DNA of 64,000 nucleotides from Primula veris (taxonomy: Eukaryota > Streptophyta > Magnoliopsida > Ericales > Primulaceae), in assembly GCA_963682055.1 (NCBI GenBank), contig OY821745.1:25355342-25419341 (forward strand). Reading direction: 5' to 3'. How positions within the stretch are numbered: the stretch's first letter is position 1; each line of letters begins with the position of its first letter. The position numbers were made by a program, and so were the translations under genes. Positions 8,802 through 37,108 of the stretch are shown piece by piece. Under the pieces are notes generated by a model, which made no database searches, was not told the origin of the DNA, and saw nothing but the letters and a program-made list of their open reading frames with translations.

Positions 8802-9365
8802 TGATAAAACATAAAAATTGGACCCGAATATGTCTAGTCGGGTATGAATCGACCCACCCATTATTAGAGGGTACCCAAGGCTAAAACCCAAAAACCCATG
8901 GTTTAATAGAGCTTTCCTAACAGGCCATTATCTATAAAGGTCCAGCCCAGTAGTAAAGGTCCCCAATGGAAAAGCCCATGAGGTGGCTCCTAAGATGACG
9001 ACATTTGTCAATATCCTATGAGGCATAATTGTCTATAAATAGCCAAATACCCCCCTTAAAAGAAGGACCAGAAAATCTATCCAAAAATATAGAGAGAAGT
9101 AGAGAAAAGAGAGAAACTTGTCAGAGCTTATCACATCAAAAAGCAAACCGAGCAGAGAAAGAACCGAGTACCGAAGAAGAAGGAGAAAGATCAAGATAAA
9201 AGATTAAATTATTAATTCGAGCACGAGTGTAATAAGGAAATTGTAATCCGAGCAAATGCAATTGCAGAGCAATAATAAAGATCAAGAAGTGTTCAATATT
9301 TACTGTCAATCATTATATTATTGTTGAAAAGCCTAACGCCACCGAACAAAGTTATGGCTTTATCA
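8802..9365 (+). repeat. 5' LTR of the Tat element
   Basis: A 564-bp LTR starting TGATA and ending TATCA. A TATA box (tataaatag) lies at 9034-9042, giving an expected transcript start near 9065. Confidence 0.95.
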
Positions 9366-9367
9366 AA

Positions 9368-9385
9368 TGGCGCCGTCTCCGGGAA
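9368..9385 (+). other. Primer-binding site
   Basis: The sequence tggcgccgtctccgggaa starts two bases after the 5' LTR. It resembles the TGGCGCC-type primer-binding sites of other Tat/Athila elements, which pair with the 3' end of a tRNA (tRNA-Asp type as I recall it). The exact tRNA was not checked. Confidence 0.75.
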
Positions 9386-9444
9386 TCATTTAGTTCCCAA
9401 CTAGCTTCGAAGTCGAATACCAATACTCTATCAGACGAGCAACA

Positions 9445-11420
9445 ATGGTGACCAATATAGAGGAAACCCATCCCGCGATAGTAGAAACCAATAACCAAAA
9501 CGTGCAAATTAGCCAACAAGACCTCGACGATCTACTTGCCATCCGCGACAGATATGACGCTATCCAGTCCGGAAACCAACCAACAACCTCCAATGTCCAC
9601 CAGGAACAACAGACCGAACAACCCCAACAGCTTGACGGGCTCGTCGACGAGCACCCTACGTCCTCGGACGACGAACGAGCATTACCCGTGTTAAAGCGCG
9701 CAAGAAGACGCTTACCCGAATCCCAGGCGGGACCGAGCTCAAGAGTCCCCCTGCCAGCAGCCTCGGTCAACTCCAGTTCCCACCAAGTTCATCTTCAAAC
9801 GAACGAAGCCCACCGGTTTGGCATGCCCAAGGAATTTGTCCTCGAGCAAACATCCCGACCACCGATATTCCCACCGCTGATAATTACCCCGTCCACGGTG
9901 GAAGTACAACCCATTGTTCCCAAAGCAGGGAACGAGGCCGCATTATTACAAGCCGAGCGGGGTCACAACGCCCAGCTTCTAGCTCAGCTGGCCGCATGCA
10001 TGTCGGCCATGGCGGCAACTGGTATCACGATACCGCCTACTCAAACCGACAATGCACATGCCGACCCCCGACACAACGTGGAAGATTCCGCTTACCGAGC
10101 AGCTATGGAAGTGGCAGGCCGAACACATGATACAAGGATACCCCAACAAGGGGAACATATCCCAAAGACGACCCCAACAGTCATCGATCGCCAAAACGCC
10201 CCTAGGGGACCTATCCCCAACAGAAACCCGAACGACGGTAGATATCCCGAGCACAGGGTCATTGTAGGATATTACCCACAACCTTACTATGGGGAATACC
10301 CCCCCTACCAAGCTCCGGATGAAGCGTTCCAACAGGCTTGGGACGTGTGCCAAGAAACTCCATGCACCGAGCATATCACTCGGCACCGCAATCCTTTGGG
10401 GTTCATCATCCCCGAATTCAGGCTCTATGATGGAAAGAGCTGTCCAATTGATCATCTGCGCCACTACAAAACTAGGATGGAGCTGTGGAGTGATGACCCG
10501 GCACTGATGTGCAAGTTTTCAAAAACAGCTTGGGCCAAGAGGCTTCGTCGTGGTATCACAACTTGCCACGGGGATCCATAGGAAGCTGGACGGAGCTTCT
10601 CCGTGCGTATTCCACCCGATATGCTGCTCATTGGAAGAAGAAGGTCAACATCGACACCCTTCTGAAAATGGCGATGCTGCCGAATGAACGACTCAATGAT
10701 TATTGCATACGTTTCATCGATGTGGCAAACTAGATTCCGCAGTACGCCAATAACATAGCCATCCAAAACTTTATCAACTCCATCCCAAGTGGCTATTGGG
10801 CGAGAAGGAAGTTCATAGGCAAAAGCTTTTCGACCACTGACGCTCTGCTAGCCTATTGTACCCACTTCACCGATAAGAACGAGGAAATGCGACTCCTTAA
10901 CCGAACTCTGCCAAGAAGAGAGTCGGTCCGAGAAGCACAAGCGGGCCACAAGAGAGCCAAGAACAATCAGGGGGAAGTAGTCAGACCGACCAGACGAGAC
11001 AAAGGTCCCGAGGTCCATGACAGGGTAGAGCAACCCCGAGAACCCGAGCATAAACCACTCTGGCTCACATACCCGACGCCGATCAACGAGCCTAAACTGC
11101 TCCAGATCGCCTACCCAATGCCCCCCAAACCACTTCAACAAGATCGGTTCCAAGAGAGGGAACACCGAAAAACCTTCGAACCGGTCGAGCTGCGATACAC
11201 TTTCAACCTGTCTGCTGAAGATATCCATAAGGAAATATGCAGAGAAAGTTGGTATTCCCGACCACAACCGTTCGCTACTCCCCCCAATCTAAGAGACTCC
11301 AAGCTCTTCTACACCTATCATGAGGATCACGGCCATCTCACCGAGCATTGCCGTAATCTGCGGTGGAAGATGAACAAGTGGGGTGATGCAGGATACCTCA
11401 ACAAGTTAATCAAGGGTGCT
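9445..11420 (+). pseudogene. gag of the Tat element (broken)
   Basis: The frame opens at ATG 9445 just after the LTR and primer-binding site, as expected for gag. It encodes a proline- and glutamine-rich N-terminus, then the retrotransposon gag domain (LYDG...PIDHLRHYKTRMEL, about residues 325-350). A one-base deletion near 10506-10515 moves the gag domain into another frame (SWYHNLPRGSIGSWTEL). That frame has an in-frame TAG at 10731-10733. Near 11310-11360 is a degenerate zinc knuckle (H-EDHGH-TEHC) whose first cysteine is replaced by tyrosine. Gag would form the capsid-like particle; this copy cannot make it intact. Confidence 0.85.
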
Positions 11421-13163
11421 GGGAACAAAGGCAAATATCTAGCCATCGAAGGATCCGACAATCGACAAGGCAAAACAATTAACGTCGTGTATCTGTCAAG
11501 AGCCAAGACCACTGGAGGGGAAAGATCACAACAGCGGCAACTGGCGCACTTTGGGCAGATAGCCAAGGCGTCACAGGCGTCAACTTCTAAGCGGCAGTGC
11601 ACGCCGCAGCGACACCCGCCCATCTCTTTCTCGGATCTTGATGAAAAAGGGGTGATATACCCCCATGGGGACGCCATTAACCTCCGCGTCCAAATTGGTA
11701 TAGACACGGTCAGCAGAGTGCTTGTCGACCAAGGAGCCTCTTGTGATATCATGTACAAAGAGCTCTTCGACAAGATGGAGCTCAAGCTGCAAGATCTACA
11801 GCCTACGGACGTCACACTGATTGGGTTCATCTCCAAGGCGACTAAACCTTTGGGAAAGATCGTCCTAATTGTTATGACGGGATCCGTATCAGTCCCCGTG
11901 GAATTCCTAGTGGTCAATGACAATTCAGGCCATAATTCGATCTTGGGCCGACCTTGGCTTCATGCCATGCGGGCCATACCTTCGACATACCACCAGAAGG
12001 TGAAATACCCTAACGCTATAGGGGAGGTCGAGACGGCCTGAGGATGTCAAGAGGATTCACGACCCTGTGAAGACATCACCGCAGCCCTGAAGAGACAGTT
12101 GGTTGTTGTCGAACAACCCACAACCATGAGGAAGCTGCTCAACCAAATAGTCCGAACTGAGAGGGTTGTTGAGGAACAAGTGGGAGAGACGCTCCGAAAG
12201 GTGAGCATCCCTAATATGGACGAGGAACACTACTTCCTCATCGGTGATAGCCTCCCCAAAGGGGAATCCGAGGAGCTGGAAACGTTCCTCTTCAATAACA
12301 TCGATAAATTCGCCTAGAGCCCCAAAGACATGCCTGGCCTAGACCCGAAAATGGCGTGTTACCACCTAAGTGTCAACACCGAGTCCAAGAGCAGGAAAGT
12401 ATCTATCCAGCACAGAGCGGCTATAATTACAGAAGTCCGAAAGCTGTTGGAAGCCGGAGCTATAAGGGAGGTGTTCTACCCAAAGTGGTTATCCAACCCG
12501 GTCGTCGTCCCTAAGAAGAACGGGAAGGAAAGAGTTTGTATAGACTTCACCAATCTGAACAAAGCCTGCCCGATGAATCCATTCCCCCTTCCAAGGATTG
12601 ATCAACTGGTGGACGCGACAGCGGGAGCAGAAAGGATGAACTTCCTCGATGCTTACTCAGGGTATCACCAAATCCCCCTCGCTCGTGAGGATCAAGAAAA
12701 GAGATTGTTCATATCGCCTCTGGGAAATTATTGCTATACGGTAATGCCGTTCGGCCTACGCAATGCGGGAGCAACGTACCAAAGGATGATAACGAGGGTA
12801 TGCCGAGAGCATATAGGGAAGACAATGGAGGTGTACATAGATGACATGGTCGTCAAAAGCGAAAGGGCCACATCCCACCTCCAAGACATTAAAGACGTCT
12901 TCCAAACATTGGGCGAGCATAAACTGAAGCTCAACGCTAGCAAGTGCGCGTTCGGCATTAGCAAAGGGAAATTTTTAGGGCATATGGTCAGCCGACGAGG
13001 AATAGAGGCTAATCCCGATCAGATAACAGCTTTGCGGAACCTAGCAGCACCCAAGAATAAGAAGCAGGTACAAGAGCTCACGGGAATGATGGCCGCACTG
13101 AGCAGGTTCATCAGCCGATTCGCGGACAAGGGACGACCATTTAAGGATGCTGCCAGAGTGTGA
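11421..13163 (+). pseudogene. protease and reverse transcriptase of the Tat element (broken)
   Basis: The aspartic protease has the catalytic motif VLVDQGAS near 11724 and the downstream ILGRPWLH motif near 11940. The frame is cut by TGA at 12039-12041 and TAG at 12315-12317; the same frame resumes after both, so these are nonsense substitutions. The reverse transcriptase spans about 12330-13150 with the conserved VCIDFTNLN, PFGLRNA and catalytic YIDDMVV motifs. It ends at a frameshift with a small deletion near 13145, where the RNase H frame takes over. The motifs are those of the Tat/Retand branch. Confidence 0.9.
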
Positions 13164-15373
13164 AGCTTCATTTAACAACCTCAAAGGGTACTTAAGGATG
13201 CTGCCACTGCTAGTAAGGCCAAACAAAGGAGATATTCTGGCATGCTATCTAGCAGTTTCCACTACAGCTGTGAGCGCGGTCATCCTAAGAGAAGAAGGTC
13301 GAGAACAATTCCCGATCTACTTCATCAGAAAAACTCTGGTTGAAGCCGAAACCCGGTACCTACCATTGGAAAAGTTATGCTTGGCATTGGTCGTTGCTAC
13401 CAGGAAACTGCCACACTATTTCATAGCTCACCAGGTCCAAGTCTACACGAAATTCCACATCAAGGAATCTCTTCGACGAACGGACATTAGCGGCCGAGTG
13501 TCCGCATGGGGGGTCAAACTATCCCAATTTTATATCGAGTTCGCACCCCGACATGCGATAAAGGGACAAGTCTTGGACGATTTCGTCGCGGAGTTCACCG
13601 AAGGGTATAACGAGCCATTGGCTATATCCCCCCAGTCACACTGGCAAATACATGTCGATGGATTAGCCACCAAGGACGGATCAGAAGCAGGGATCGTCCT
13701 CAAGTCTAGTGAGGGCGCGATCATAGAGAAAAGCATTAAACTGGGCTTCCGAGCTACTAACAATGAAGCAGAATACGAAGTCATGATAAATGGCATGCTC
13801 ATTGCACGATCCCTTGGATGCTCCCACTTAACGGGGAGTTCAGACTCCATGCTGATCGTCAATCAAGCCATCGGCGAGTACCAGGCCAAAGACGACAGAA
13901 TGATCCTCTACCAAGAGAAAGTCCAAAGCTTAATGGCCACCTTCGAACAGTGCAAATTAATAAGGATCAATCGCACCGAAAACGCACATGCCGACGCCTT
14001 GGCCACCCTAGCCTCGACATTAACGTTGGCCAGCACACGGTCAATCACAGTGGAACTTCTGGAAACCCCGAGTATCACCAGAAGAATAGACCGAATAACT
14101 TCAATCCAATACGAGCTAGGATGGATGGACGACATGATTCACTATCTACGAGACGGGACGCTACCGGCAGACAAGATAAAAGCGTTGAAAATTACGAGAA
14201 AAGCACCTCGGTTCTGGCTATCTGAGGACGACAAACTATACAAATCCAGTTAACGAGGACCCCACCTTCTGTGCGTCCGGCCCGAGCTGTAACAACCAGT
14301 CTTGGAAGAAATTCACGAAGGATCATGCGGAGCACACATCAAAGGAAGGTCCCTTGCTAACAAGACAATCACCCAAGGATATTGGTGGCCTTATATCAAA
14401 CGAGATGCCGACGTTTATGTCCAAAAATGCGACAAGTGCCAACGATTCGACAAAATACCTCGGCTCCCATCATCCTTGATGGCCCCGGTATCGGCTCCAT
14501 GGCCATTCACCCAATGGGCAATTGATCTAGTCGGGAAGCTTCCCAAGGCACCCGGCAGCGTCGAATATTTGATCGTAGCAACGGACTATTTCACCAAGTG
14601 GGTCGAGGCTAAACCTCTCCGAGAAATTAAAGCCAGCAATGTCAAACAGTTCATCTGGGAGCATATTATCACCAGGTTCGGTATACCATACGCCATTGTC
14701 GCAGACAACGATACCCAGTTCAAGGACGCCAAGCTACAACTTTGGTACGAAGAACTCGGTATCCGAAAGTTCTATTCGACTCCAACATACCCACAGGGTA
14801 ACGGTCAAGCAGAGGTATCAAACCAAACTGTCCTAGACGGCATAAAAACAACCCTGGAACAAGCAAAGGGAAGATGGCCTGAGCGACTGCTCAACGTCTT
14901 ATGGTCCTGCCGAACTACACCGAAGACGGGCATAAAGGAAACCCCGTTCAGCTTAGCATATGGCATGGAGGCCGTCATACCAACGGAAATCGGCCTACCC
15001 ACCATCCGAACAACTTTAGTCGAGCAAGGAAACAATGAACAAAGAATGAGAGAAGAGCTCGACATATTAGACGAAAAACGAGAGATAACAGCCCTTACCC
15101 TAGCTAAGTACCAACAAAGCGTCAAAAAAACCTATGACAAGAGGGTGAAAGGGACCCAAGAGTTCATGGTAGGAGAACTGGTGCTACGGCGAGTAACGGT
15201 CTATACCAGAAACGAGATACACGGTAAGGTTGAGCCCCACCTGGGAAGGCCCATACGAAATCGTTAAAAGAACAAGTCCGGTATCCTACAAGATCAAACG
15301 CGTTCTGTTCGACAATAGCCGAGGTGAAAAGAATTCTTGGAACGTGGCTAATCTTAAGAAGTACTACGTGTAA
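13147..15373 (+). pseudogene. dual RNase H and integrase of the Tat element (broken)
   Basis: The first RNase H is at about 13190-13600. The second, archaeal-type RNase H (IHVDGLATKDGSEAG, then NNEAEYE, DSMLIV and HADALA) is at about 13645-14030. Two in-frame TAA codons (14251-14253 and 14290-14292) separate it from integrase. Integrase (about 14300-15270) has the HHCC zinc motif (GAH...CDKC) and the D, D, E residues in WAIDLVGK, VADNDTQF and GQAEVSNQT. A frameshift near 15225-15250 moves the C-terminal segment (EGPYEIVK to KKYYV) to another frame ending at TAA 15371-15373. Confidence 0.9.
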
Positions 15374-15474
15374 GCAAGCCTACCATTCCAGGTACTACCT
15401 CACCTCTGCTTTGTCATGACGTTACCTTTTGAATAAATGAAATATTTTTTCATGCTTTCTAACGAGTCCTCCAA

Positions 15475-15808
15475 GGAGACATGTGAAATTCCCAACATGG
15501 CATGTCTAAGAAAGTGCCTAGGAATACTGTGAAATTCCCAACATGGCATTTCTAAGAAAGTGCCTAGGAATACTATGAAATTCCCAACATGGCATGTCTA
15601 AGAAAGTTCCTAGGAATACTGTGAAATTCCCAACATGGCATGTCTAAGAAAGTGCCTAGGAATACTGTGAAATTCCCAACATGGCATGTCTAAGAAAGTG
15701 AATAGGAATACTGTGAAATTCCCAACATGACATGTCTAAAAGACTGCCTAGGAATATTGTTACTAATTCCCAACATGACATGTCTAAGAAAGTGCCAAGG
15801 AATATTCA
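15475..15808 (+). repeat. Tandem array, 46-bp unit, about 7 copies
   Basis: The unit contains 'gaaattcccaacatggcat' and 'agtgcctaggaat'. Successive copies start at 15483, 15529, 15575, 15621, 15667 and 15713, exactly 46 bp apart, followed by more divergent copies. It lies just after pol, in the hypervariable 3' region where Tat/Ogre elements are known to carry tandem repeats. Confidence 0.95.
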
Positions 15809-15832
15809 AGTCCTCCAACGAACCGGAGGCAC

Positions 15833-16260
15833 ATGCAGGTACCAATAAGGGAAAATCAAACAAAAGAAAGCCAAGCAAAGAGGCAAATATGCAGGTACCA
15901 ATTAGAGAAAGCCGAACAAAAAGAAAGTCAAGCAAAGAGGCAAATATGCAGGTACCAGTAAGCAAAAGTCGAACAAAAGGAAAGCCAAGCAAAGAGGCAA
16001 ATATGCAGATACCAATAAGAGAAGGTCGAACAAAAGAAAGCCAAGCAAAGAGGCAAATATGCAGGTACCAGTAAGCAAAAGTCGAACAAAAAGAAAGCCA
16101 AGCAAAGAGGCAAATATGCAGATACCAATAAGAGAAGGTCAAACAAAAGAAAGCCAAGCAAAGAGGCAAATATGCAGGTACCAGTAAGCAAAAGTCGAAC
16201 AAAAAGAAAGCCAAGGAAATAGGCAAATATGCAGATACCAATGAGCAAGAATCAAACAAG
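15833..16260 (+). repeat. Tandem array, 56/57-bp unit, about 8 copies
   Basis: The unit contains 'gaggcaaatatgcaggtacc' and 'gaaagccaagcaaag'. Copies start at 15833, 15889, 15946, 16003, 16059, 16116, 16172 and 16229, with period alternating between 56 and 57 bp. Two sub-types (gcaggtacca and gcagatacca) alternate in the middle, suggesting amplification of a dimer. Confidence 0.95.
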
Positions 16261-16453
16261 ATTGTTGAATAGTTCTAGCCCGCATTACGGAGGCGACAAG
16301 GTACCCAACAACGAAAACAACAAAGGAAACTCAATCCAGTCAATGAAATATCAACAAGACAATGAAAAGGTCCAATACATGAATAAAGGAATAAAGCAAT
16401 CCATGCCCGCATTATGGAGGCAATAATGTACGACGAATAAATAGAGAAATCAA

Positions 16454-17098
16454 TTAAAAAGAGCTGCTACATGACGAACATGACGGTACAAGACTCAGCC
16501 TAACCTCTTCGTCATCTGTCGCCGTGTCTTCATCGGTCTCTTGACCCTCAAAACGCTCCTCAGAAACAAGGAAATCAAAGTTGGTCGTGTAAACACCCAC
16601 ATGTTGCCCTACCTCGAGCCGGGCTACGAACTCTGACCCCCTCGTGTTCTCATGGGCAACAGACGCACCCTTAAGACGAGCTTCATCCACAGGGTGCTGA
16701 TGAGCTTTGTACAGTTCAGCGGAAGCATCATGCCGACATGTAGACGCACGAAAGAATTTTACCAAGACATTGGTCTGGGATATTAACAGCTTTAACTTAC
16801 CAAACCACTTATCCTTTAAACGCCAATACCGGTCTAGACGATGCTCTTGCACCTCATAAACATGCTCGGCGCGTCCCACATAATCCCGAAATGACGCAGA
16901 TTGAGCTCGCACTTTTTTCTTAAGTCGAGCACACTGGACTTGCAGCTTCTCGTTTTTTCCCACTAGGACATGAGGTAAACAGGCACGAGCTTCCTCTGCC
17001 GCGTCAGACGAACCCCCAACTCGGGTAGCACCAGTCAGTCCTTGCCCCGCATTAACAGGGGGCAGAGAGCCAGTCTGATGCACCAAAGTAGCAAATGC
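16454..17098 (-). CDS. Antisense coiled-coil protein, probable second exon
   Basis: The minus-strand frame of about 214 codons begins after a good splice acceptor (cttcgtag, exon start 17098, phase 0). It ends at the stop at 16454. The protein has a charged heptad-like region (about residues 45-75, rich in K, R, Q and E), a middle helical part and an acidic tail ending in a serine/cysteine-rich segment. No known domain is recognised. No ATG is found at the start, which supports splicing to the upstream antisense exon at 17.2-17.9 kb. GC content is higher than the flanking genome, as for the rest of this element. Confidence 0.5.
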   Translation of the reverse strand, partial: AFATLVHQTGSLPPVNAGQGLTGATRVGGSSDAAEEARACLPHVLVGKNEKLQVQCARLKKKVRAQSASFRDYVGRAEHVYEVQEHRLDRYWRLKDKWFGKLKLLISQTNVLVKFFRASTCRHDASAELYKAHQHPVDEARLKGASVAHENTRGSEFVARLEVGQHVGVYTTNFDFLVSEERFEGQETDEDTATDDEEVRLSLVPSCSSCSSSF

Positions 17099-17224
17099 CT
17101 ACGAAGAAAGGAGGGAAAAAGACAGCAACATCAATACGACTAAAGAACCAACAGAGCACCATCCAAATAAATAATATTTTTATACAAGCCTGAAGAAAAT
17201 CAAAATGCAAGCTACTCTCAAAAC

Positions 17225-17878
17225 TCAGTCAGATAAGCCCTCGACGGAAGCCGAGGTCTCTGCGGCGTCGGCAAAATGAATGTCCTGCAGCGAAACTATC
17301 TGCGTACCCAAACGACCCTTTACCGAGGCATCCAAGTGGTTCAATGTAGCCGTCATTTCGGTTACCTGAGCCATAGCATCAACCATACGCTCCGCTCGGA
17401 TAACACCACGGGTGCCTTTCACATACTCATACACCTCTAGTGCCTGAGCACGATCCCAATAGGCTTTGACGAAGGCTAGTAGTAGGTCCGCGTCTTCGAA
17501 AACGGCCCCTAACACCAAGTTCAAGCTCGTCACCCGGCCTCAGGCTTTATCACGAGAGCGCCGAAGTGCACCAAGAAGCTCTTTGGCCTTACCCTTGTTT
17601 GCTGTATAGTAGGCGGTCTTCTTGCTAAACTTCTCTCCCAAATCGCGTAACCGAGTCGACAAGTTTGAAATATGAATATTCAGATCCTCGATTTCACGAC
17701 GAGCAGAATTCAATTCCGAAGTTAGGGACGCCTTGGGCCTTTCTGGACCACCTATAACAGTATCATCTACCCTACGACTAGGAGAGGTCCAGACCACCAT
17801 GGCAAGGGGATTAACAGGTACCTGACAAGATTTTTTTATGTCCTTCAAAAGATGACGACAACCAACAGACAACGACAT
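17225..17878 (-). pseudogene. Antisense coiled-coil protein, upstream exon with an in-frame stop
   Basis: The frame starts at ATG 17878 and reads through two open stretches that share one frame, split by a single TGA at 17542-17540. The first part has a predicted coiled coil (LTSELNSARREIEDLNIHIS and onward). The second is helical (VYEYVKG, TEMTATLNHLDASVKG). It ends in the same region as the intron leading to the exon at 17098. A donor-like ttg/gtaagtg at about 17936 and an acceptor just before 17878 suggest further upstream exon sequence. Function unknown. Confidence 0.5.
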
Positions 17879-18022
17879 TAACTAGGAAAGCCAAACAGGA
17901 AGAAAACGGAGCACATATATTATCACTTACCAAAAGAATGTCCTAGATACAAAAGAGGCCCACAATCCGGGTACCAAAATACCTTACACTAAGCTACACA
18001 AAAAATACTACCAAGTATATAA

Positions 18023-20150
18023 TCAATGATCCACCTGAGAAGATGCGGGTGGGGGAATAACAGCAGTATCAGACCGAGGAGTAGACGGAGCTGACCCGGA
18101 ATGGGGACAAAGCGCTGTCGAAGTCGTGTGCCCCGGCAGCCGTGGTAGCTCCTCATCCCGAATATTGGCCCAATCCAGAGGCTTAGGCGGTGCACCTTGA
18201 GGACAGGGATAAACCAATTCCGACCATGACCGGTTCGACAGAGGTACCTTCGCAAAATTCAGAGCACGAACGTGGGCGCAAAAGGCCGAAAAGTTGGCAA
18301 TCAGTACAAACTTTGTACGCTCCTCCGCTTGTGCCGCTTTCAAAGAAGCAACCTCGGATTTTTCGGCCTCCATATCCTCCGCCATGAGCACATTATCGGC
18401 CTCTAATAGGTCATACTTCTCGACCATATGCTCCTTTTCGACCTCCAACTTTTCAACCTCCTCGGTCAGACGTAAGTTTGTCATAATCTGCTGCCAACTT
18501 CACCATCTGAGCTTTCTCCTCAGCCATTGCTTTATTTTCGGCAATTAGCTTCTCTTTCTCAGCCTCGAGCGCCGTCAACTGATCCCTCAGCACCACGGTA
18601 CCCACGAAAGCCTGTAATCAGAAACATCAGACACCATCCAACTAAGGGCGTAACGAACTATATAAACAAAAGACGAGCGAAACATACCCGAAACACGTCA
18701 TTATTGGCCTTCTCAATGACCGACACTATAGGACGAGCAGCCATTTCCTCTGCATCCTTGAAGATAAGGGGCTTAAGAGTAGTGTATCCCATCCTTAAAG
18801 CCCTGGGTTGCTCCAGCAATTTGCCCCCACACCGCTCAATATAACAGGTCATCGAGACCCCGTCCACTACCACCTTTTCCGGATTCGCGGGAACCTCATC
18901 CTCGCCTCCCGTCACAACCTCCCCGGTAATATCTTTGCCGGCTACCACCTCCATTTCCTCCCTCACCTCTTTTTCCGAAGGAACAGTCTCAGGGGTCATG
19001 CGCTCACTCACATCCTCAGTTCGGAGTGGCGAGATGACAGGCAGGTTCATCGGATCCACACCTATGTCCACCATGAGGTTGAGATGTCCGAATATATTAT
19101 CGAACGACCCCTGAAACACAACAATACCCATTGACCGGGCAAGGGCAAGGGTAACCAATGAAGAAGTCAATAGCTGAAATATGATAACAAATAAAGAGGG
19201 GAAAAATGGAATTAAAAGACAATTCACAAAACCAATACACGTACATCACCATGCACATAAGCCACCTCGGTGGAATCACCCTGGGGGGAGGCCACCAACA
19301 CCACATCCGTGACAACCTCAGGAACCTCCTCACTAAACGATGTCTCTGATACCCTAGTCCTCTTTAGGGTCCCAGCAACAGGGTCTGCTGCTCGGGGTTT
19401 CGGACGAACAGGCCTTCTCCCTCCACGAGTAGCGCTCCGAGCCTTGACGATTTTGAGGAATTCCTTCTCCGGCTCTATGGGAATCTCAGGCGCAGGATTA
19501 CCCTTGTTCACTGGTCCCGCAGGATAACCTAACAATGTGGGAGCAGCACGGATCATCGGATCTTTCGTCGGTCCAGGCCCCCACCAATTCCAAAGGGCTA
19601 AGAGAGCTTCGACATTGGGAGCGCCAAGGTCTGGAACATCGGGGGCAGTGGTAGCAGGTCCAGGAATCGGGTGTCCCGCACAACCCCAATCTCCGGAAGC
19701 AATCACGATACCAAGGTTATGCTCCTTGTTGGTATCCGGAAGACCGATGACAAGCCGAGAGAAGGAGCGCAATGTCTTCAAATAAGAGCTACGGCGATCA
19801 AAACTCAAACTATAGACACCGAATACATCTTTCAGTTCGACTTTTATCCCCGACAACTCCGACAACCTTGAAATACCGTTCAAGGTACGGTAGCCATTCA
19901 GGGCCAATTGGGCCGGAGCAATATGGACGACCTCAAAGAACGAAGCCATCCATTCAGTAAAAGGAAGTCGAAGACCCCCAGTAAAGAAGGCTGAGGAATG
20001 AACAGCTACCTCGCCGGCAGGTACAACCCCCATGACCTCCTCATCGAAGATAGGCAGCCGAATATGTATGTCGGCGGGTATCCCGGCCAGCTTCTTAAAA
20101 TCCTCTTCTACAAATGGGCCAACTTGAGCCAAGCATTGGGTCAGAATTTC
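18023..20150 (-). pseudogene. Antisense spliced gene, 'putative gypsy type transposon' (Transposase_28) protein
   Basis: Three exons can be read on the minus strand: 20150-19245, 19110-18688 and 18611-18023. Introns begin GTACGT and GTATGT and end TTTCAG and TTACAG, and both junctions are phase 0. Exon 1 encodes the PF04195-type motif (FFTGGLRLPFTEW, IAPAQLALNGYRTLNG), followed by a basic, proline-rich segment. Exon 2 is acidic. Exon 3 is a long coiled coil (LTALEAEKEKLIAENKAMAE and onward) with a frameshift near 18470-18490 and a conserved-looking tail (FSAFCAHVRALNF). Proteins of this kind are known as antisense frames in Grande/Retand-type Tat elements; their function is unknown. The 5' end is uncertain because a stop codon abuts the acceptor at 20151, so at least one upstream exon is expected. 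Confidence 0.75.
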
Positions 20151-21183
20151 CTATCCAAACGTCATAAAAACTTCATCAATATACTATCCAAAAACAAATC
20201 ACACGACGCGAGTTCCCCCTAATTACCAGAAACCCTAAGTTTTTCCACCCACCCAACAAACGAAAATCCTATACATGATGAAAAACCACCAATCACCAAC
20301 CTAGATAGACATATATAGGCAAACCAGACCATATATCAACGCCACATACATGACCACAACCACAAATCAAATACAGACCCTAAGCACAGAGGTATACAGA
20401 AAACCCCACAGAATAAGAAAACATTTACAGTCATATTTAATGGTAAGGAGGACAGGGCCGCACAAATATATCAGAAATCAAAAGAAACCCTAGGTAGAGA
20501 GGCAGCAAATCTTTTTGGCGGGAAGAACAAACCCTAGAGAGAGAAAATAAGAAATATATGTTTTCAACAAATTATGAGATAAAAACAAAAGGAATTACTT
20601 AGCACAGTTAAAAGGAGTGGAGCCACAAAAAGAATAAAATAATAACCGTCCTTTCGTGTGACAGAGGTTTACTTTTTTTTTAGCCACAGAAAAGTCCACA
20701 ACCGCTGCTATTTTCAACAAATCAACGCTCCAGATCTTGCCACATCAGATAGTGTATCCCACTAACCAATGCAGTTCACATCATTACACCTATATAAGCG
20801 GCCAGTGGACCCTACCACGAAAAGCTTACAGCATACGCTACCAAAATTACCACCGAGGATGCACCCCGATTACGTTCCTCGACGCCAGACAATTTCTTAC
20901 CATAGGAACACCGAACAAGGTGGACGAAGACCGTTCCTAGCTCGACGGATTTTAAAGCATCAAGTCTAGCAACGCTCTCCGGGGGATAACCGTGGTACAC
21001 TTTGCTCGGTGTCCAATACCGAGATGCATAGTATGGTTTCAACGTTAAATCAAAATAACCAGTAAATGAATTGCGAAAAGAGAGTAGAATTTTTATTCAT
21101 CCACAAGGGGGAAAACAACCACAACCAGTTACAACGGGAAAAAAAAAAAACTACTACAAAGACGTCAACAATAAAATACTTCT
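20151..21183 (-). promoter_or_regulatory. 5' region of the antisense Transposase_28 gene
   Basis: No long open frame. A TATA-like tatataag lies at 20791-20798 and reads acceptably on either strand. Three telo-box-like aaaccct(a) words (about 20226, 20484 and 20529), common in plant 5' regions, lie between it and the first recognised exon. The stretch probably holds the promoter, 5' UTR and a first exon of the antisense gene. This is inference. Confidence 0.4.
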
Positions 21184-21549
21184 TTATTTCTGAACCCTAG
21201 AACTACCCCCTCCCTCGGCGTCCCTCTTTGCCAAGAGCTCTTGAAGATGATCCCTCTCCTTGATCAATCGAGAAATACCCATCTCATCCTATTGCAAGGC
21301 GTAAGACTGAGACTTGCATTTTTGCTCGGCTTCAAAACGAGCAGTACCCTCCTCATCCCAATATTGTTTAAACCTCCTGACTTCAGTCTGAGCACACTTG
21401 AGATCAGCTCTTAGCCATGACATCTCGATTTCTTTCAACTGAAGAGGAGTCAATTCCTCTTCCCCGAAACCAGGGGGACGGGGTAGCATGAAAGTAGGCT
21501 CTTCATGAAGGGCTTTCTTTTTCGCAGCAGATCTAGTGATGGGAGTCAT
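21184..21549 (-). pseudogene. Antisense coiled-coil mini-gene 5 (nonsense mutation)
   Basis: ATG at 21549 follows a TATA box at 21644-21637 by about 95 bp. The protein starts MTPITRSAAKKK (a basic, possibly nuclear-targeting N-terminus), has a proline-rich part, then a coiled coil (LKEIEMSWLRADLKCAQ). The frame is stopped by TAG at 21291-21289. The coiled coil continues in frame for 35 more codons (ISRLIKERDHLQELLAKRD), ending at TAA 21186-21184. The full product would be 121 residues and the truncated one is 86. A candidate AATAAAA signal lies downstream at 21097-21091. Confidence 0.6.
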
Positions 21550-21636
21550 CTCAGATAAAAGCAAGTTAGAAGAAACAAAAATCATAAACAAGAGAGAGAA
21601 AGGAAGAGTGGAAAATGAAGTGCAAACAACATGGAG

Positions 21637-21644
21637 CATTTATA
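21637..21644 (-). promoter_or_regulatory. TATA box of antisense mini-gene 5
   Basis: TATAAATG on the minus strand, about 95 bp before the ATG at 21549. An ATG lies inside this TATA box, so a longer frame starting there is unlikely to be used. Confidence 0.55.
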
Positions 21645-21754
21645 AGGAGTCAAAGGGCACGAAATACGAAGGGATGCAACTGTTCAAATACAGAAAAGAA
21701 AAAAGGAAATACAAGTTACAAAATGGAAAATACGAAAAAGGAAACTAGCCCAAT

Positions 21755-22237
21755 CTAATCAAGGTCAATGGGCGGGAAAACCGAACTGCCAGACCGAGAG
21801 AAAGCCACCCGAGCAGAGAGATCTAGCTGAGCTTGGTAGGAGTCGTTCATGACGACCAAACACTCATTCTCCCTGGCAAGATGGGCATTCTCACCAATGA
21901 GGACAGTAACATGCTCCTTAAGCCGAGCATTTTTAACTGTCATGCTAGCAAGGCCTTGAGGAGAGTTATCAAACTCATCATGGGCTTGATCCCAAATCTC
22001 CTCGGCCTCATACCAGGAGTTGGCCAGATGGTTTCTTCGCAGCAACAAGTGGTCGAGCTGACAACTCAAGGCCGAAATCTCTGTCCACTTGATGGTCTCC
22101 TCGGGGTGCGAGTTAAACAAACTCAAAGCCAGGACACCATACTCCTTCTCAAGCCTAGCCATTCGAAGACGGACCTGAGATACCTCAACATCCAAGTCCT
22201 TGATCTGAGCATGATAGTTAACCATAGGCCCATACAT
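21755..22237 (-). CDS. Antisense coiled-coil mini-gene 4
   Basis: A 160-residue frame from ATG 22237, which lies about 100 bp after a TATA box (22340-22333). The protein is helical nearly throughout. It has an N-terminal coil (IKDLDVEVSQVRLRMARLEK), a middle helical part with tryptophans, and a C-terminal coil with the repeated ENAHLARENE pattern. It ends with a short Ser/Pro tail. No domain is recognised. Intact here, unlike gag-pol. It shares size, orientation and layout with its four neighbours. Confidence 0.6.
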   Translation of the reverse strand: MYGPMVNYHAQIKDLDVEVSQVRLRMARLEKEYGVLALSLFNSHPEETIKWTEISALSCQLDHLLLRRNHLANSWYEAEEIWDQAHDEFDNSPQGLASMTVKNARLKEHVTVLIGENAHLARENECLVVMNDSYQAQLDLSARVAFSRSGSSVFPPIDLD

Positions 22238-22332
22238 TCTTAAAAGTTGTTAAAACACAAAAGGAGATGGGGGATGAGGTAGAAACAAACAAGTTTATGA
22301 AGAATGATACATCATAAAGAAAAGTTGAAGAG

Positions 22333-22340
22333 TATTTATA
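22333..22340 (-). promoter_or_regulatory. TATA box of antisense mini-gene 4
   Basis: TATAAATA on the minus strand about 100 bp before ATG 22237. Confidence 0.5.
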
Positions 22341-22540
22341 GAGCAAAGATAGTATGGCATTGTCTGACAATGCTTGGAAACATGCATCTTTGACCAATCT
22401 TTCATGCCTCAGATTTCACGTTGGTACAGCACAACACCATACAAGAAGAAAAGACATGTACTTGATGATTCTGACAAGGGCAGAAAACGACAAACCACGA
22501 AAGCAATATAAAAAGAACAACATGAGATGCAAATAAATAT

Positions 22541-22660
22541 TTCATTAATGGGATTACATAGGTGTTCATTACATCAGAGGACAACCCCCCAAAAGAAAAT
22601 CTATTACATAGGTGTTCATTACATCAGAGGACAACATCAAAATAAGAACGATTACATCAG
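22541..22660 (+). repeat. Direct repeats around 'attacataggtgttcattac'
   Basis: Two copies of 'ttacataggtgttcattaca' plus 'tcagaggacaac' (about 22553 and 22606) and a third partial copy near 22650. They lie in the presumed 3' region of antisense mini-gene 3. Confidence 0.85.
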
Positions 22661-23028
22661 ACAACATATCCAAAGAAGATCGACTATATCAGCGAGCCAA
22701 GCGAACAGGAGGCAAGAAGGAAAGAAGCACAAAAAAAAAAAAAAGAGGAAGAGGAACATAAAGAAGAAAAGAAAAATACGAAGAAAATAAACATAAGGCA
22801 GAAGAAAAACGAAAATAACAAAAAATCCGAGGAACTCAGGGTTGATTGTTACATCGTAGTGGTGAAAAGAAGATGAAGAAAAAGAAAAAGGAGGCACAGA
22901 AGAAAAAGAAAAAGAGATGAGAAAAGATGAAGAAATGAAGAAAATTGAAACAAATAAAAAATAAAGAAAAATGGGAAGGCTAGGGGGAGGTCGATCGGTA
23001 TCAATGAGAAGGCCCGGCAGAGATATCC

Positions 23029-23292
23029 CTATCTCGAAGCGTCGGATTCTCCCTCAACACCTCGTTCTCTTCGACCAGAGATATCCCTATCTGGATTATT
23101 GCTGATGGCACGTCGGCAATAATCCAGCTCGGACCTTAGCCAAGTTAATTCCCGGACCATCTCGGTATGGTGATAACGCATCACCTTTAACTCCTCCTCA
23201 ACATCCTTCAACAGCTTTAGTGCATGGCCATAAGAGGCTTCAAAAGCCTCCACTTGCAAAGATAAGGCAGATTTGGTGGAAGAACCAGCCAT
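23029..23292 (-). CDS. Antisense coiled-coil mini-gene 3
   Basis: An 87-residue frame from ATG 23292 (MAGSSTKSA...). A TATA box at 23385-23377 lies about 93 bp upstream. The central part is a coiled coil (KLLKDVEEELKVMRYHHTEM) followed by a charged, glycine/arginine-containing tail. An upstream in-frame ATG at 23364 lies between the TATA box and this ATG and may fall in the 5' UTR. The MAG- start resembles the MAS- start of mini-genes 1 and 2. No domain is recognised. Confidence 0.6.
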   Translation of the reverse strand: MAGSSTKSALSLQVEAFEASYGHALKLLKDVEEELKVMRYHHTEMVRELTWLRSELDYCRRAISNNPDRDISGRRERGVEGESDASR

Positions 23293-23376
23293 TTTAAGGA
23301 AGTTATAGGATAAAATTCTGTATATGGCGAAGAAAGATAATGGGGAAATTATGAAGAAACCCATATCTTGAGAGGG

Positions 23377-23385
23377 TATTTATAG
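23377..23385 (-). promoter_or_regulatory. TATA box of antisense mini-gene 3
   Basis: CTATAAATA on the minus strand, followed by a pyrimidine-rich leader to ATG 23292. Confidence 0.55.
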
Positions 23386-23758
23386 ATAAATTAAGGAAGG
23401 TTTAATGTGGGGAATTGCAACCGTTCGTCAAAAGACTATGGAAAACATGGGTAATTGAAAAGATGCGTCTGTTGAGAAGAAACGCTTGGATTCATGCCAG
23501 TATTTAAAGAGGGTAAATTTCAAAAAGCTTCTACACGTGTCATTCTAGGGAAGTGCAATAGTGTTAAGAGATAAAGGATAAGATTTGTGCACAGGGCTCG
23601 AGAAATCCCATTAATTCCTGATACAAAGATTAAGAAGATTAAATGGATAAGATCAAGCACAAGGCTCAAGAAAACCCATTAATGAAGCCACACGTGTGCA
23701 CAGTAAAGAGAAATTGCATTGGGAAAATAAATCATATAAGAACAAGAAAAAGAAGAAT

Positions 23759-23765
23759 TTTTATT
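23759..23765 (-). terminator. Polyadenylation signal, antisense mini-gene 2
   Basis: AATAAAA on the minus strand about 80 bp after the stop codon. It is placed similarly to those of mini-genes 1 and 5. Confidence 0.5.
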
Positions 23766-23842
23766 AATTAAGGGGAACTTCATTACAAGATGTTACTCAA
23801 CAAAAGGACATTACAACATTACAAAAAGAAAGGAAAAGAGAA

Positions 23843-24181
23843 TTATTTTGTAGAAGGGCCAGCTTCATCATCAGGTCTCTTTTTAGACCGAGCATACACT
23901 TCCTTGAGGGCCAATTTATAAGCCTTCTTGGAAGCAATATGCCTGTCTCTAGAGGCCTCGAGCTCTTTGATCCGAGCACGCGCCCAAATATTGTCGATCA
24001 AAGACCTTTGGTATTCCCTCTCCATGGCGTCCAATCGCTCGTCCATTTCAACAGCCCGACGAGCTTCCACTGACAATAAGGCAATCCTCCTCTCAAGAGT
24101 ACGCACTTTCCTAACTTCCTCCTCTAGATGAGCAACATACTTAGGATGGTTGTTACCACTATTTTCACGAGGAGAAGCCAT
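23843..24181 (-). CDS. Antisense coiled-coil mini-gene 2
   Basis: A 112-residue frame from ATG 24181 (MASPRENSGNN...), about 58 bp after the TATA box at 24240-24231. It is predicted coiled coil almost throughout (YVAHLEEEVRKVRTLERRIA, RARIKELEAS). It ends in a lysine-rich helix (KKAYKLALKEVYARSKK) and a PDDEAGPSTK tail. It is clearly homologous to mini-gene 1: MASP start, YVA-LE-EV, RIK-LEAS, K-AYKLA-KE and PDD are shared in order. An AATAAAA signal lies downstream at 23765-23759. An in-frame upstream ATG (24220) is possible but not shared with the paralogue. Function unknown. Confidence 0.7.
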   Translation of the reverse strand: MASPRENSGNNHPKYVAHLEEEVRKVRTLERRIALLSVEARRAVEMDERLDAMEREYQRSLIDNIWARARIKELEASRDRHIASKKAYKLALKEVYARSKKRPDDEAGPSTK

Positions 24182-24230
24182 TTGGTCGTTAATAAAGAAT
24201 AAATTGCACAAAGAAGACAAGGACAGCCTC

Positions 24231-24240
24231 CTTTTATAGG
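24231..24240 (-). promoter_or_regulatory. TATA box of antisense mini-gene 2
   Basis: CCTATAAAAG on the minus strand, about 58 bp before ATG 24181. Mini-gene 1 has the same motif (ttataaaagg) at the same distance. Confidence 0.6.
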
Positions 24241-24396
24241 AAGAAACATGGGGTAGATCAAAGGTCGTCTCGAAAAAAGACTAAACCTCTTGAACTTCCC
24301 AAGAACATTATTGGCTAACTAACGACAGGACGAGTCCAATTAAGTCATTCAATGAGGTATTAAAGAAATAAACAGACAAGAATGAAAATAGGAAAA

Positions 24397-24403
24397 TTTT
24401 ATT
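24397..24403 (-). terminator. Polyadenylation signal, antisense mini-gene 1
   Basis: AATAAAA on the minus strand about 70 bp after the stop codon of mini-gene 1. Confidence 0.5.
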
Positions 24404-24469
24404 AATATTTTTAATAATTCGATTACAATTTGGTGATGACACCCAATACAGAGAAATTACAAAAGCTAA

Positions 24470-24781
24470 TTACTCCGAGGAAGAGCTTTCTTCAACGTCA
24501 TCCGGCCCGGGTTTGGACTGAGCATGCAACTCCTTGAAGGCAAGCTTATAGGCCCTTTTTGCTGCCTTTTGCTTAGCCAGCGAAGCCTCGAGCCTCTTTA
24601 TACGTTCAAAGGCCCAATCCCGATCAGCCATAGTCACATGGTGAGCCGCGTCCATATCAGACAACTTTTTTGTCACGACCGCCAGCTTCCTCTTCATGAC
24701 ACGAGCTTTCTTGACTTCATTCTCCAGATAAGCGACGTAATATGAAGAATTATCTCCAGTAGAATCATGGGGAGAAGCCAT
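24470..24781 (-). CDS. Antisense coiled-coil mini-gene 1
   Basis: A 103-residue frame from ATG 24781 (MASPHDSTGDNS...), about 60 bp after its TATA box (24843-24834). It is coiled coil (YVAYLENEVKKARVMKRKLA, FERIKRLEASLAKQKAAK), then the helix KRAYKLAFKELHAQSK and an acidic serine tail. It is a tandem paralogue of mini-gene 2. It lies closest to the 3' LTR, about 275 bp away. No catalytic motif or known domain is seen; a structural or adaptor role is possible but not shown. Confidence 0.7.
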   Translation of the reverse strand: MASPHDSTGDNSSYYVAYLENEVKKARVMKRKLAVVTKKLSDMDAAHHVTMADRDWAFERIKRLEASLAKQKAAKRAYKLAFKELHAQSKPGPDDVEESSSSE

Positions 24782-24833
24782 TACGTCACAAGCGAAGTGG
24801 TGATGGAATAGATAATTATGGGTAGGGCACTCC

Positions 24834-24843
24834 CTTTTATAAC
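24834..24843 (-). promoter_or_regulatory. TATA box of antisense mini-gene 1
   Basis: TTATAAAAGG on the minus strand, about 60 bp before ATG 24781. Confidence 0.6.
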
Positions 24844-25056
24844 AAGATAAATTTTGGAAAGGTCAAGGGTTTTTATCGAAGAAAGATATCAAGATAGGAC
24901 TTCTTAAATAACCTCAAATGGGCCCCAGGAAACAGTCATAAATTTGTTACATTTTTCGATGAAACATTGGGAACAACAAGACCGAAGTAACACCCTCGAC
25001 AGACCGATCATGACTCCCTCGACATGGAGACCACACCGAGGACGTCAGGGAGCACT

Positions 25057-25621
25057 TGATAGAACATAAAAATTGGACCCGAATATGTCTAGTCGGGTAT
25101 GAATCGACCCACCCATTATTAGAGGGTACCCAAGGCTAAAACTCAAAAACCCATGGTTTAATAGAGCTTTCCTAACAGACCATTATCTATAAAGGTCCAG
25201 CCCAGTAGTAAAGGTCTCCAATGGAAAAGCCCATGAGTTGGCTCCTAAGATGACGACATTTGTCAATATCCTATGAGGCATAATTGTCTATAAATAGCCA
25301 ACTACCCCCCTTAAAAGAAGGACCAGAAAATCTATCCAAAAAATATAGAGAGAAGTAGAGAAAATAGAGAAACTTGTCAGAGCTTATCATATCAAAAAGC
25401 AAACCGAGCAGAGAAAGAACCGAGTACCGAAGAAGAAGGGGAAAGATCAAGATAAAAGATTAAATTATTAATTCGAGCACGAGTGTAATAAGAAAATTGT
25501 AATCCGAGCAAATGCAATTGCAGAGCAATAATAAAGATCAAGAAGTGTTCAATATTTACTGTCAATCATTATATTATTGTTGAAAAGCCTAACGCCACCG
25601 AACAAAGTTATGGCTTTATCA
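25057..25621 (+). repeat. 3' LTR of the Tat element
   Basis: A 565-bp LTR, TGATA...TATCA, with a TATA box at 25289-25297. It differs from the 5' LTR by 10 substitutions and one extra A in a poly-A run. The base run before it (agggag, 25047-25052) is only weakly purine-rich, so the polypurine tract is not convincing. Confidence 0.95.
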
Positions 25622-25925
25622 TATTGTATTTGGCTGCGTAAATAGGAAAATAAGTCGTAAGAAAAATTAAAATAAACTATAAGACAATTTATTTGTAAGT
25701 TATAACTATGTGTAAATTTCTATATATTTTATAATTTTAACGTTTGGTTCGGTTCGGTATTGTACCAAACATATGATATGGATACCGAAACCGAACCGAC
25801 TTTTAAAGTTTGGTTCGGGTGTACCGTACCGAAAAATCGGTATACCGAACTTTCGGTACCAACTTGTTTGGTTCGGTTTGAAAATCGGTCGGTTGGTACA
25901 AATCGGTACAAAAAGTCCATCCTTA

Positions 25926-34475: not shown

Positions 34476-35683
34476 CTAGTTTCTCACTTCAGAATCATTC
34501 CTGAGTGTTCTAGATGGTAAGGTTATCTCTCGGAGTTGTGTTTTCATACGCCGTTTTTCAACATTAGTTTTGGTAGAATAAACACTTTTAAACTCTTCTA
34601 GATCACCCTCTACCCCATAATCATTGTTGTTCCCATTATCATCAATTACATCTAATTTTTTCCAGAATGTATGAATATATTCTAGTGGAAGAGCCTTCCC
34701 GAATAAAATATGTTCACTCATAATATGATGACAAGGTAACATGTGAGACAACTTTATACGGCAAGAACAATTCTCATCAGACTGGCCACTATATTTTTTT
34801 GTTCTTCAAATAATAAATCAAATGCATGGTGTGTGATATACGACCTAAGATTTTTAAATAGAGGTGTCAGTTCTGAATGTGGAAAATAAGACTTGCATTT
34901 ATCCAACTTCATCTTAATATCCTCAAACTGTTTATTCAGAATTTTATTCACTTATACCCAAACATTTTCAAGCGTGCCAGTATTTGTGGAAATAGATCTT
35001 TTTAGCTTTATGTGTTGTTGTTCGGCCTGATTACTAGTTATGTTACCTAGAGGTGTTGTATGGTTGGTATAACATGCAACAAACTTACCGGCATAATCAT
35101 TTAACAGTTTGTCTACATACTTAAGCACGGAAGGAGATACGATTTGTAGGAGGATTTGAAACAAGATCGGTTATAATTCTACTCCTCTATCGTCTCAACA
35201 TCAATAAATAAACCCCAATTATCTAGAAACGTTTGCCACTCCTCGTCTGGGATTTTATTTTTTACAGTTTCTTAAAACATTTTTGGCAATATGAAAAGTG
35301 CACAATATATGATAAGAATCGGAAAAAACAACGGATAAAACATTTAGCAAGGTCATTTCTCTGTCGGTCACAAACACCCTATGTAGCGTACAACCCTCCA
35401 ATGTTTCTTTAAATTTTTCCAAAACCCAGGTATAACTTTCCTGAGTCTCATCCCTCATGAAAACAAAACATAAACAATATGTTTGGTTCGTTGATGTCAT
35501 CCCTACGACCTCTAGAAATGACATATTAAAACGGTTTGTCCTATATGTACAGTCCATTAACAATACATCAGGAAAAGCTTTGAATATCTTTATAGAATCG
35601 GGGTGGGGAAAAAACAAGTTCTCTAGGCTATGAGTTATTGGGTTCATATTATAGAAGAAAATATACCGATGTTTATCCAACAA
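34476..35683 (-). pseudogene. MULE transposase (broken)
   Basis: The catalytic MULE/FAR1-type domain is at 35683-35255: VLLMDCTYRTNRFNMSFLEV supplies the first aspartate, then VFVTDREMTLLNVL and LCTFHIAKNVLRNCKK. Downstream parts (35164-34952, 34951-34754 and 34751-34476) continue the family's C-terminal region (GNITSNQAEQQHIKLK), separated by single stop codons. The N-terminal DNA-binding part is missing or unrecognisable. Such a protein would cut and move elements bearing the matching inverted repeats; this one is inactive. Confidence 0.85.
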
Positions 35684-36248: not shown

Positions 36249-37108
36249 CTGTAACCGAGGGGAAACCTAGGCAATCCCTCAGGTGGGTCGATATCAGCAG
36301 GCAACCTTTCACACGGTCTAACAGGCAGTAGCCTGGTTATCGTCCACATATCAAGAAACATCACCGCCCCGCTTACTCCGCTAGATTTACCTCGCACCAA
36401 TTTGCATAAATTAGCCTCCAACCAGGCAAGAAGAGATGATCCCCAACTATACTCTGCACATGTGTCAAAATCCTCAAGAAATGGCAGATGCCATAGTGGA
36501 ATCTGATCACTGCTCTAATTTGAAAATACATGTGCACCAAGTAATAATAACATGACAGCCCTAGATTGATATAACAAGCACTCATCACTAGGATCGGGGG
36601 GTAATTCACCGAAAGTATATAACATCCAATCAAGTTTAACTGTCAAACAGTGTGTATCAACTTGATTATCAAGAGTTCTAACACCCAACAAGCTCTCTAC
36701 TAAATTCAACTTGCTCGTCTTGGTATCATTCCTCTCCAATCGGGTAACAGCAAGACCATCCACCCTCAGACCAAGCATGATCTCTACATCTTGTAACGAT
36801 ATCCCCAACTCTCCACCGACAAAATGGAACGAGTGGATCTCATCACGCCACCTATAAACTAAGGTTGTACACAAGCCTCGATCTACGGTATAATGACCTA
36901 TTGTGTGAATACCGTAAAAACCCACTCTAATCATATTTTGTACCACTCTACCAGGTGTCGGTATCTGCCAACTATAATTATATAATCGTATCTTGTGTGC
37001 ATCCCCTCTTCCCGCTTCTCTCCCAGCCACCCAAGTCTGATTTGAAATATGACCGGTCAGGCATAAAATGCCCATCTTACCTTTAATCTGTGGACATGGT
37101 TGTGCCAT
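36249..37108 (-). pseudogene. Plant mobile domain (PMD) protein of the MULE (nonsense mutation)
   Basis: ATG at 37108. The frame encodes the PMD signature: TTLVYRWRDEIHSFHFVGGE and LQDVEIMLGLRVDG at residues about 80-120. An in-frame TAG at 36517-36515 interrupts it. The same frame then continues the domain (IPLWHLPFLEDFDTCAEYSW, SGAVMFLDMWTITRLLPV). A splice-donor-like GTATGATA follows at 36248. PMD proteins occur both inside plant transposons and as domesticated silencing factors (MAIN family). The position within a MULE and the same strand as transposase indicate the transposon type. Confidence 0.8.

Follow-up and report, generated by a model that had tools for sequence, protein, structure and literature searches.

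What is encoded on the antisense strand between pol and the 3′ long terminal repeat (LTR) of a Tat-clade Ty3/gypsy retrotransposon of Primula veris: one accessory gene or several? We addressed this question for an element located in a 64-kb stretch of contig OY821745.1 (‘the window’; all coordinates are counted from its first letter). The initial annotation of the window had described five minus-strand frames, one cut by a TAG, as small, separate gene-like units arranged in series on the antisense strand, with a TATA box before each ATG and a poly(A) signal after at least three of the stops, and all of these features were recovered in our analysis. We consider it fairly probable that a Retand-type element here carries an expanded version of its antisense accessory region, which would serially express small, predicted coiled-coil proteins.

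The array consists of five separate minus-strand open reading frames (ORFs) between positions 24781 and 21184, here called mini-genes m1 to m5 from the 3′ LTR inwards, with lengths of 103, 112, 87, 160 and 86 codons (see Table 1). When positions 20800–25056 were dinucleotide-shuffled 1000 times, five minus-strand ATG-initiated ORFs of at least 80 codons were never reached, and four were reached in three shuffles; m3 and m5 were counted from their outer ATG in this test. These outer in-frame ATGs, located at 23364 in m3 (111 aa) and at 21639 in m5 (116 aa), are only 20 and 5 bp past the respective TATA boxes, and the inner ATGs, also taken in the initial annotation, are therefore the likelier starts. 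Direct repeats accompany m3: a 20-bp repeat (95%; 23018–23037 and 23076–23095) lies in its tail and just past its stop, and a perfect 33-bp repeat (22553–22635, starts 50 bp apart) is found in the stretch that follows it, each 33-bp copy holding two minus-strand TGTAA motifs, with a third, weaker partial copy from 22651.

The motif TATAWAW is present six times on the minus strand and once on the plus strand of 20800–25056. Five of the six minus-strand copies precede the five ATGs, at a distance of 57–103 bp, and the sixth (23920) lies within m2. Dinucleotide shuffles contained 1.1 such boxes on average, and in none of 1000 did more than two of the five ATGs have a box 40–120 bp ahead of them; when the five 150-bp upstream pieces were shuffled separately, three genes acquired a TATAWAW in one shuffle out of 1000, and more than three in none. 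The boxes had been pointed out in the initial annotation, and the exact pattern and the distance window were set in this analysis.

Plant 3′-end signals comprise UGUA-containing upstream elements and AAUAAA (PMC11245536). Just past the stop, TTGTAA is found in four of the five mini-genes and AATAAA in three: m1, m2 and m5, at 67, 78 and 87 bp past the end (for m5, past its TAA); for m3 and m4, no AATAAA was detected in the 260 bp that follow the end. All seven minus-strand copies of TTGTAA are located at most 100 bp past the end of m1, m2, m4 or m5, and the plus strand has none. TTGTAA followed four genes in none of 1000 shuffles and, with the five spacers shuffled alone, three genes in four of 1000 and four genes in none; as the pattern was picked after inspection of the sequence, these counts are somewhat flattered. 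It had been suggested that antisense placement spares the genomic RNA of the element the poly(A) signals of the mini-genes. The strand distribution of TTGTAA agrees with this suggestion, but that of AATAAA (nine copies on the plus strand, four on the minus) does not.

The mini-genes m1 and m2 are paralogues with a conserved protein sequence: 44 of the 105 aligned positions (42%) are identical (E=2e-27), in an alignment that starts at the first methionine and stops shortly before the end. Over 102 aligned codons, the proportion of synonymous differences (pS) is 0.68 and that of non-synonymous differences (pN) is 0.34 (bootstrap of pS minus pN 0.18–0.50), with identities of 0.63, 0.69 and 0.44 at the first, second and third codon position, respectively. 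The two strongest blastn matches between the m1 and m2 loci fall in the ORFs, extending from 6 bp before the start codons to 26 bp past the stops; the other DNA matches are weak (E of 0.04 or more), and blastn yielded no significant alignment of the upstream regions. Since divergence is concentrated at silent sites and third positions, and since homology is essentially confined to the ORFs, this pattern points to an old duplication after which the protein was kept. Two other relationships were considered and rejected. The five ORFs do not form one paralogous family, as m1–m2 is the only significant pair among 55, and they are not the pieces of one broken long antisense gene, as a separate TATA box precedes every ORF and the m1–m2 alignment begins at the start codon and runs nearly to the stop.

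Coding periodicity is present in at least m1, m2 and m4, for which the period-3 signal was reached by none of 500 shuffles; for m5 (the part before the TAG) it was reached by 8 of 500. The corresponding numbers for seven spacers were 152–498 of 500, and the GC content of the spacers is 0.32–0.43 versus 0.47–0.50 for the ORFs (averaged). Codon usage trained on gag-pol was dropped as coding evidence: frame 0 was the best of six in m1, m2 and m5, in m3 and m4 it was beaten by a frame on the opposite strand, and the test split ORFs from spacers only.

What might the encoded proteins look like? AlphaFold2 predicts m1, modelled from a two-sequence alignment, to be one helix of 77 residues (residues 13–89; mean predicted local distance difference test score (pLDDT) 83.9), and m4, modelled from a single sequence, to have three helices, with a pLDDT of 75.5 for the best of five models and 31.3 for the worst. 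A home-made heptad score beats shuffles for m3 and m5 (each reached by 0 of 200) and m4 (2 of 200), and weakly for m1 (11 of 200). A helical fold is supported by prediction for m1 and m4, the two proteins modelled, and such long lone helices suggest coiled-coil partners; a coiled-coil nature is plausible for all five proteins and shown for none. All five had initially been described as helical or coiled-coil: the predicted helices of m1 and m4 agree with this description, and the heptad score leaves it weak for m1 and unclear for m2. Searches against solved structures returned no matches for m1/m2 or for m4, none of the viral structure models matched m4 with an E of 0.001 or less, and m1/m2 had no match in bacterial and archaeal genome contigs. 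The viral_contigs search also gave no match for m1/m2 or m4, which is uninformative, since the reverse transcriptase piece of the element itself was unmatched there.

The element that houses the array is complete, with LTRs that are identical in 554 of 565 alignment columns (98%) and a 5-bp target-site duplication (TSD), TATTG, on either side (8797–8801 and 25622–25626). Its internal region measures 15.7 kb. With assumed substitution rates of 1.3e-8 and 7e-9, the Jukes–Cantor LTR distance of 0.018 would make it a young insertion, about 0.7–1.3 million years old. The five open pieces of gag-pol contain, in this order, Pfam matches to aspartic protease (E=4e-4, below the Pfam cut-off), RVT_1, RNase H, RVT_3 and integrase; the first piece, that of gag, is without a match. 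In the piece at 13102–14250, PF17919/PF17917 occupies aa 18–143 and RVT_3 (PF13456, 3e-16) aa 186–303, and we read the latter as aRH, the second RNase H. A second RNase H in addition to the one linked to the reverse transcriptase defines Tat, and its location between RNase H and integrase marks the angiosperm Tat subclades Ogre and Retand (PMC6317226); given our reading of RVT_3, the element displays both features. The LTRs, the TSD and the second RNase H thus agree with the initial placement of the array inside a Tat element, and membership of the Retand lineage is likely, not proved. By hand count, gag-pol has about six lesions in 5.87 kb, of which four are in-frame stops and two are frame changes; any one of the six could be the natural gag/pol boundary, as gag and pol are in two ORFs in about 41% of the Retand clusters of a 2025 survey (PMC11963269). 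An Rfam scan of the element gave no matches.

The mini-gene array sits between the 3′ LTR and a larger antisense gene (or genes) on the same strand, upstream of that gene. The array had been proposed to act as a module, a proposal that made no connection with the larger antisense gene at 20.1–16.5 kb. The latter, probably the usual Retand accessory gene, has a sub-threshold match of its first piece (19224–20132) to Transposase_28 (TRP28; PF04195, E=0.016); none of nine antisense pieces scanned reaches a Pfam cut-off. Antisense coding signal appears to recur from 24.8 to 16.5 kb. Within 16454–18484, three of the minus-strand pieces tested have a period-3 signal (reached by 0, 2 and 0 of 500 shuffles), and the junction at about 18.6–18.7 kb resembles, by eye, a plant intron (GTATGT...TTACAG). 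The whole stretch from pol to the 3′ LTR (15268–25056) spans 9,789 bp. Of the two tandem arrays at its pol end, the second one (57 bp) also scores at a period of 113 bp (94% matches), and ORFs of 115 codons on the plus strand and 189 codons on the minus strand stay open across it.

Table 1. Features of the element and of its antisense mini-genes (window coordinates).
Feature	Coordinates	Strand	Basis or details
Ty3/gypsy Tat-clade LTR retrotransposon, complete, 16.8 kb	8802–25621	+ (gag-pol)	LTR pair and TSD
5′ LTR	8802–9365	+	LTR alignment
gag-pol, disrupted	9394–15267	+	open pieces and Pfam scan
Two tandem arrays after pol	15482–16242		46-bp x 7.0 (15482–15804); 57-bp x 7.2 (15833–16242)
Larger antisense gene(s), split over several frames	16454–20132	-	ORF pieces; introns and lesions suspected
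m5 3′ signals	21092–21134	-	TTGTAA 21134; AATAAA 21097
Mini-gene m5, 86 codons (ATG 21549 to TAG 21289–21291)	21184–21549	-	frame next closed by TAA ending 21184
TATA box m5	21638–21644	-	95 bp before inner ATG
m4 3′ signal TTGTAA	21716–21721	-	AATAAA absent within 260 bp
Mini-gene m4, 160 aa, three predicted helices	21755–22237	-	ORF; period-3; AlphaFold2
TATA box m4	22334–22340	-	103 bp before ATG
Mini-gene m3, 87 aa, weakest coding signal	23029–23292	-	ORF; period-3
TATA box m3	23378–23384	-	92 bp before inner ATG
m2 3′ signals	23760–23824	-	TTGTAA 23824, 23816, 23788; AATAAA 23765
Mini-gene m2, 112 aa, m1 paralogue	23843–24181	-	ORF; m1 alignment; period-3
TATA box m2	24232–24238	-	57 bp before ATG
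m1 3′ signals	24398–24462	-	TTGTAA 24462, 24428; AATAAA 24403
Mini-gene m1, 103 aa	24470–24781	-	ORF; period-3; single long helix predicted
TATA box m1	24835–24841	-	60 bp before ATG
3′ LTR	25057–25621	+	LTR alignment

How could such an array function? Each unit would be a compact RNA polymerase II gene, with a TATA box, a short leader, an unsplit ORF of about 90–160 codons and an AT-rich trailer. The host RNA polymerase II would transcribe the units singly from the integrated DNA copy, each transcript ending before the next unit, and the small helical proteins would be made without using the sense genomic RNA, which would itself carry the mini-gene information passively through reverse transcription. 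Duplication, as in the case of m1/m2, followed by divergence may have produced a set of coiled-coil partner proteins. The array could have a helper or regulatory function, with an accessory role as the likeliest one: nuclear or particle-associated adaptors that may form pairs among themselves or associate with the large antisense protein or Gag, and that would modulate expression, export or packaging of the element’s RNA. The wider proposal is that a lineage of Retand elements carries an antisense module of at least five small genes, each promoted and terminated on its own, which multiplied by duplication and encode interacting coiled-coil proteins under selection; this we put forward tentatively, as a possibility that falls somewhat short of probable.

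Several points weigh against the reading of the stretch as an expanded accessory region. The sequence is that of a single element copy. Within the window, tblastn with eight pieces found no further copies, apart from m1 and m2 matching each other. The m1/m2 dN/dS of about 0.25 (bootstrap 0–0.51, with infinite-dS replicates set to 0) rests on a saturated dS (1.78). The similarities between m3 and m5 (2 of 200 shuffles) and between m4 and the antisense piece at 17540–17878 (1 of 200) do not reach significance, given 55 pairs. Neither m1 nor m2 stands out by the heptad score (for m2, 23 of 200 shuffles reach it), and the Transposase_28 match of the larger gene falls short of the Pfam cut-off (15.9 versus 26.2 bits). 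Finally, the period-3 signal of m3 is weak (reached by 33 of 500 shuffles), its tail may, by eye, be in a shifted frame, and neither TTGTAA nor AATAAA is found within 260 bp of its end; a split test, in which the period-3 signal of the first 189 nt of m3 was reached by 48 of 500 shuffles, left the frame shift unsettled.

It is on these properties of m3, together with the TAG inside m5, that the foremost alternative builds: only m1, m2 and perhaps m4 would be genes, with m3 and m5 being decaying remnants of an array already degenerate in the parent element. We regard this as unlikely, if worth keeping in mind. Both m3 and m5 keep well-placed TATA boxes, and m5 has TTGTAA and AATAAA past its final TAA. 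Furthermore, at the lesion rate of gag-pol, the five frames (1.76 kb) should in any case have accumulated 1.8 lesions since insertion, and one sure (the m5 TAG) and one possible (the m3 tail) are seen. Since the expected and observed numbers are similar, decay is not evidence of selection, and the earlier argument that four of the five frames are intact while gag-pol is wrecked does not hold. Support for selection on the mini-genes comes from m1/m2, and concerns the time before the present insertion.

As the five units are all encoded opposite to the sense RNA, it is conceivable that the antisense RNA is what matters – by pairing with the genomic RNA into double-stranded RNA, by silencing or by controlling read-through – and that the proteins are by-products. 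Other retroelements are known to produce antisense non-coding transcripts, and for plant antisense ORFs a role of double-stranded RNA has been discussed (PMC7264820). However, a pure RNA role falls short because it leaves unexplained why third codon positions and silent sites are where m1 and m2 differ most, why their homology hardly extends beyond the ORFs, and why at least three ORFs show codon periodicity; we consider it improbable.

Slightly less probable still is that a host gene cluster or another transposon was inserted in, or captured by, the element. The TATA boxes and 3′ signals are gene-like, and there is no family match to contradict such an origin. However, the block is oriented antisense, as is typical between pol and the 3′ LTR, and no repeats bracketing it were seen in 20200–25060 or in a wider direct-repeat search: the two inverted pairs in 20200–25060 are short local palindromes or hairpins in m5 and m3, and the direct repeats there are short only. 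Chance ORFs in a non-coding stretch are extremely unlikely: while the plus strand of 20800–25056 also has two ATG-initiated ORFs of at least 80 codons (120 and 87), the shuffles matched neither the five minus-strand ORFs nor the placement of their TATA boxes, the periodicity also speaks against chance, and for m1 and m2 their paralogy already contradicts it.

Elsewhere in the window, a MULE transposase domain (PF10551, 4.7e-26; 35255–35683, minus strand) lies about 0.8 kb from a plant mobile domain (PMD; PF10536, 1.5e-21; 36515–37108, minus strand), and the two fragments may be what is left of a Mutator-like element that carried a PMD gene. Fragments of DUF4216, DUF4218, Transposase_21 and Transpos_assoc, all on the minus strand at 44840–48404, are what we take to be remains of a CACTA-type DNA transposon. 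A 226-codon plus-strand ORF with DUF1639 (54588–55268; PF07797, 2.7e-17) is probably part of a host gene.

If a lineage of Retand elements does carry such a module, its accessory set would be larger than those reported for plant LTR retrotransposons in the available text of two surveys, and it would have been overlooked because of their ORF limits: at least 600 bp, or shorter only if TRP28 is present (PMC11963269), and 250 codons (PMC6317226). If they are also expressed and conserved, some of these elements would rival complex retroviruses in accessory gene number, with the accessory genes being separate and on the opposite strand. A lower ORF limit would allow an immediate rescan of existing elements, and the array offers a way to test what role antisense genes play in Tat elements.

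How does the array compare with known systems? In the literature searched – mostly titles and starts of abstracts, with Steinbauerova 2011, Gomez-Orte 2013 and Kejnovsky 2006 not covered – we found no description of small antisense genes that stand in series and have separate promoters. Accessory roles as such do exist in LTR retrotransposons, as exemplified by the C. elegans element Cer1, which needs an accessory protein for genomic RNA export (PMC10309623); Cer1 is an analogy, and does not show that such a role holds here. More than one accessory ORF is named in some elements (PMC11728184), a likeness that extends to Silene Retand, known to us by ORF names only (ORF3/4 in PMC11728184, ORF4 in PMC7264820). 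In common bean, each of 15 families of pvRetro13-type elements has one antisense ORF, ORF2, of 211–939 aa (PMC4093653); located between pol and the 3′ LTR, and with an SMC domain in some cases, it resembles the present antisense genes, but a small-ORF array is not described for the bean elements in the part of that paper at hand.

The closest comparison is with the Retand clusters of the 2025 survey, all of which have antisense coding potential, with TRP28 in 97% (PMC11963269). The initial statement that Tat elements can carry one antisense frame understates the known variety: the same survey counts, in its 63 larger clusters, 104 antisense ORFs that are 600 bp or longer. Our element is similar in having antisense coding between pol and the 3′ LTR, a tandem array after pol (present in about half of the surveyed elements), a pol domain order that fits Ogre/Retand and a large antisense ORF with a match, here weak and sub-threshold, to Transposase_28, a domain found in 23% of Retand elements (PMC6317226). 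It differs in size: the pol–3′LTR stretch of about 9.8 kb is outside the surveyed 2,933–6,566 bp (a range and not a definition), and the internal region is 15.7 kb as compared to 7,380–12,869 bp. It differs as well in the five extra ORFs, each with its own TATA box, which the survey would miss because of its 600-bp limit. Finally, Grande gene23, as recounted in PMC7264820, is an antisense gene with its own promoter and a nuclear product, and shares with our array the accessory character, the antisense orientation and a long 3′ internal region; one gene is described for Grande, as against five small units ahead of a large one in our element.

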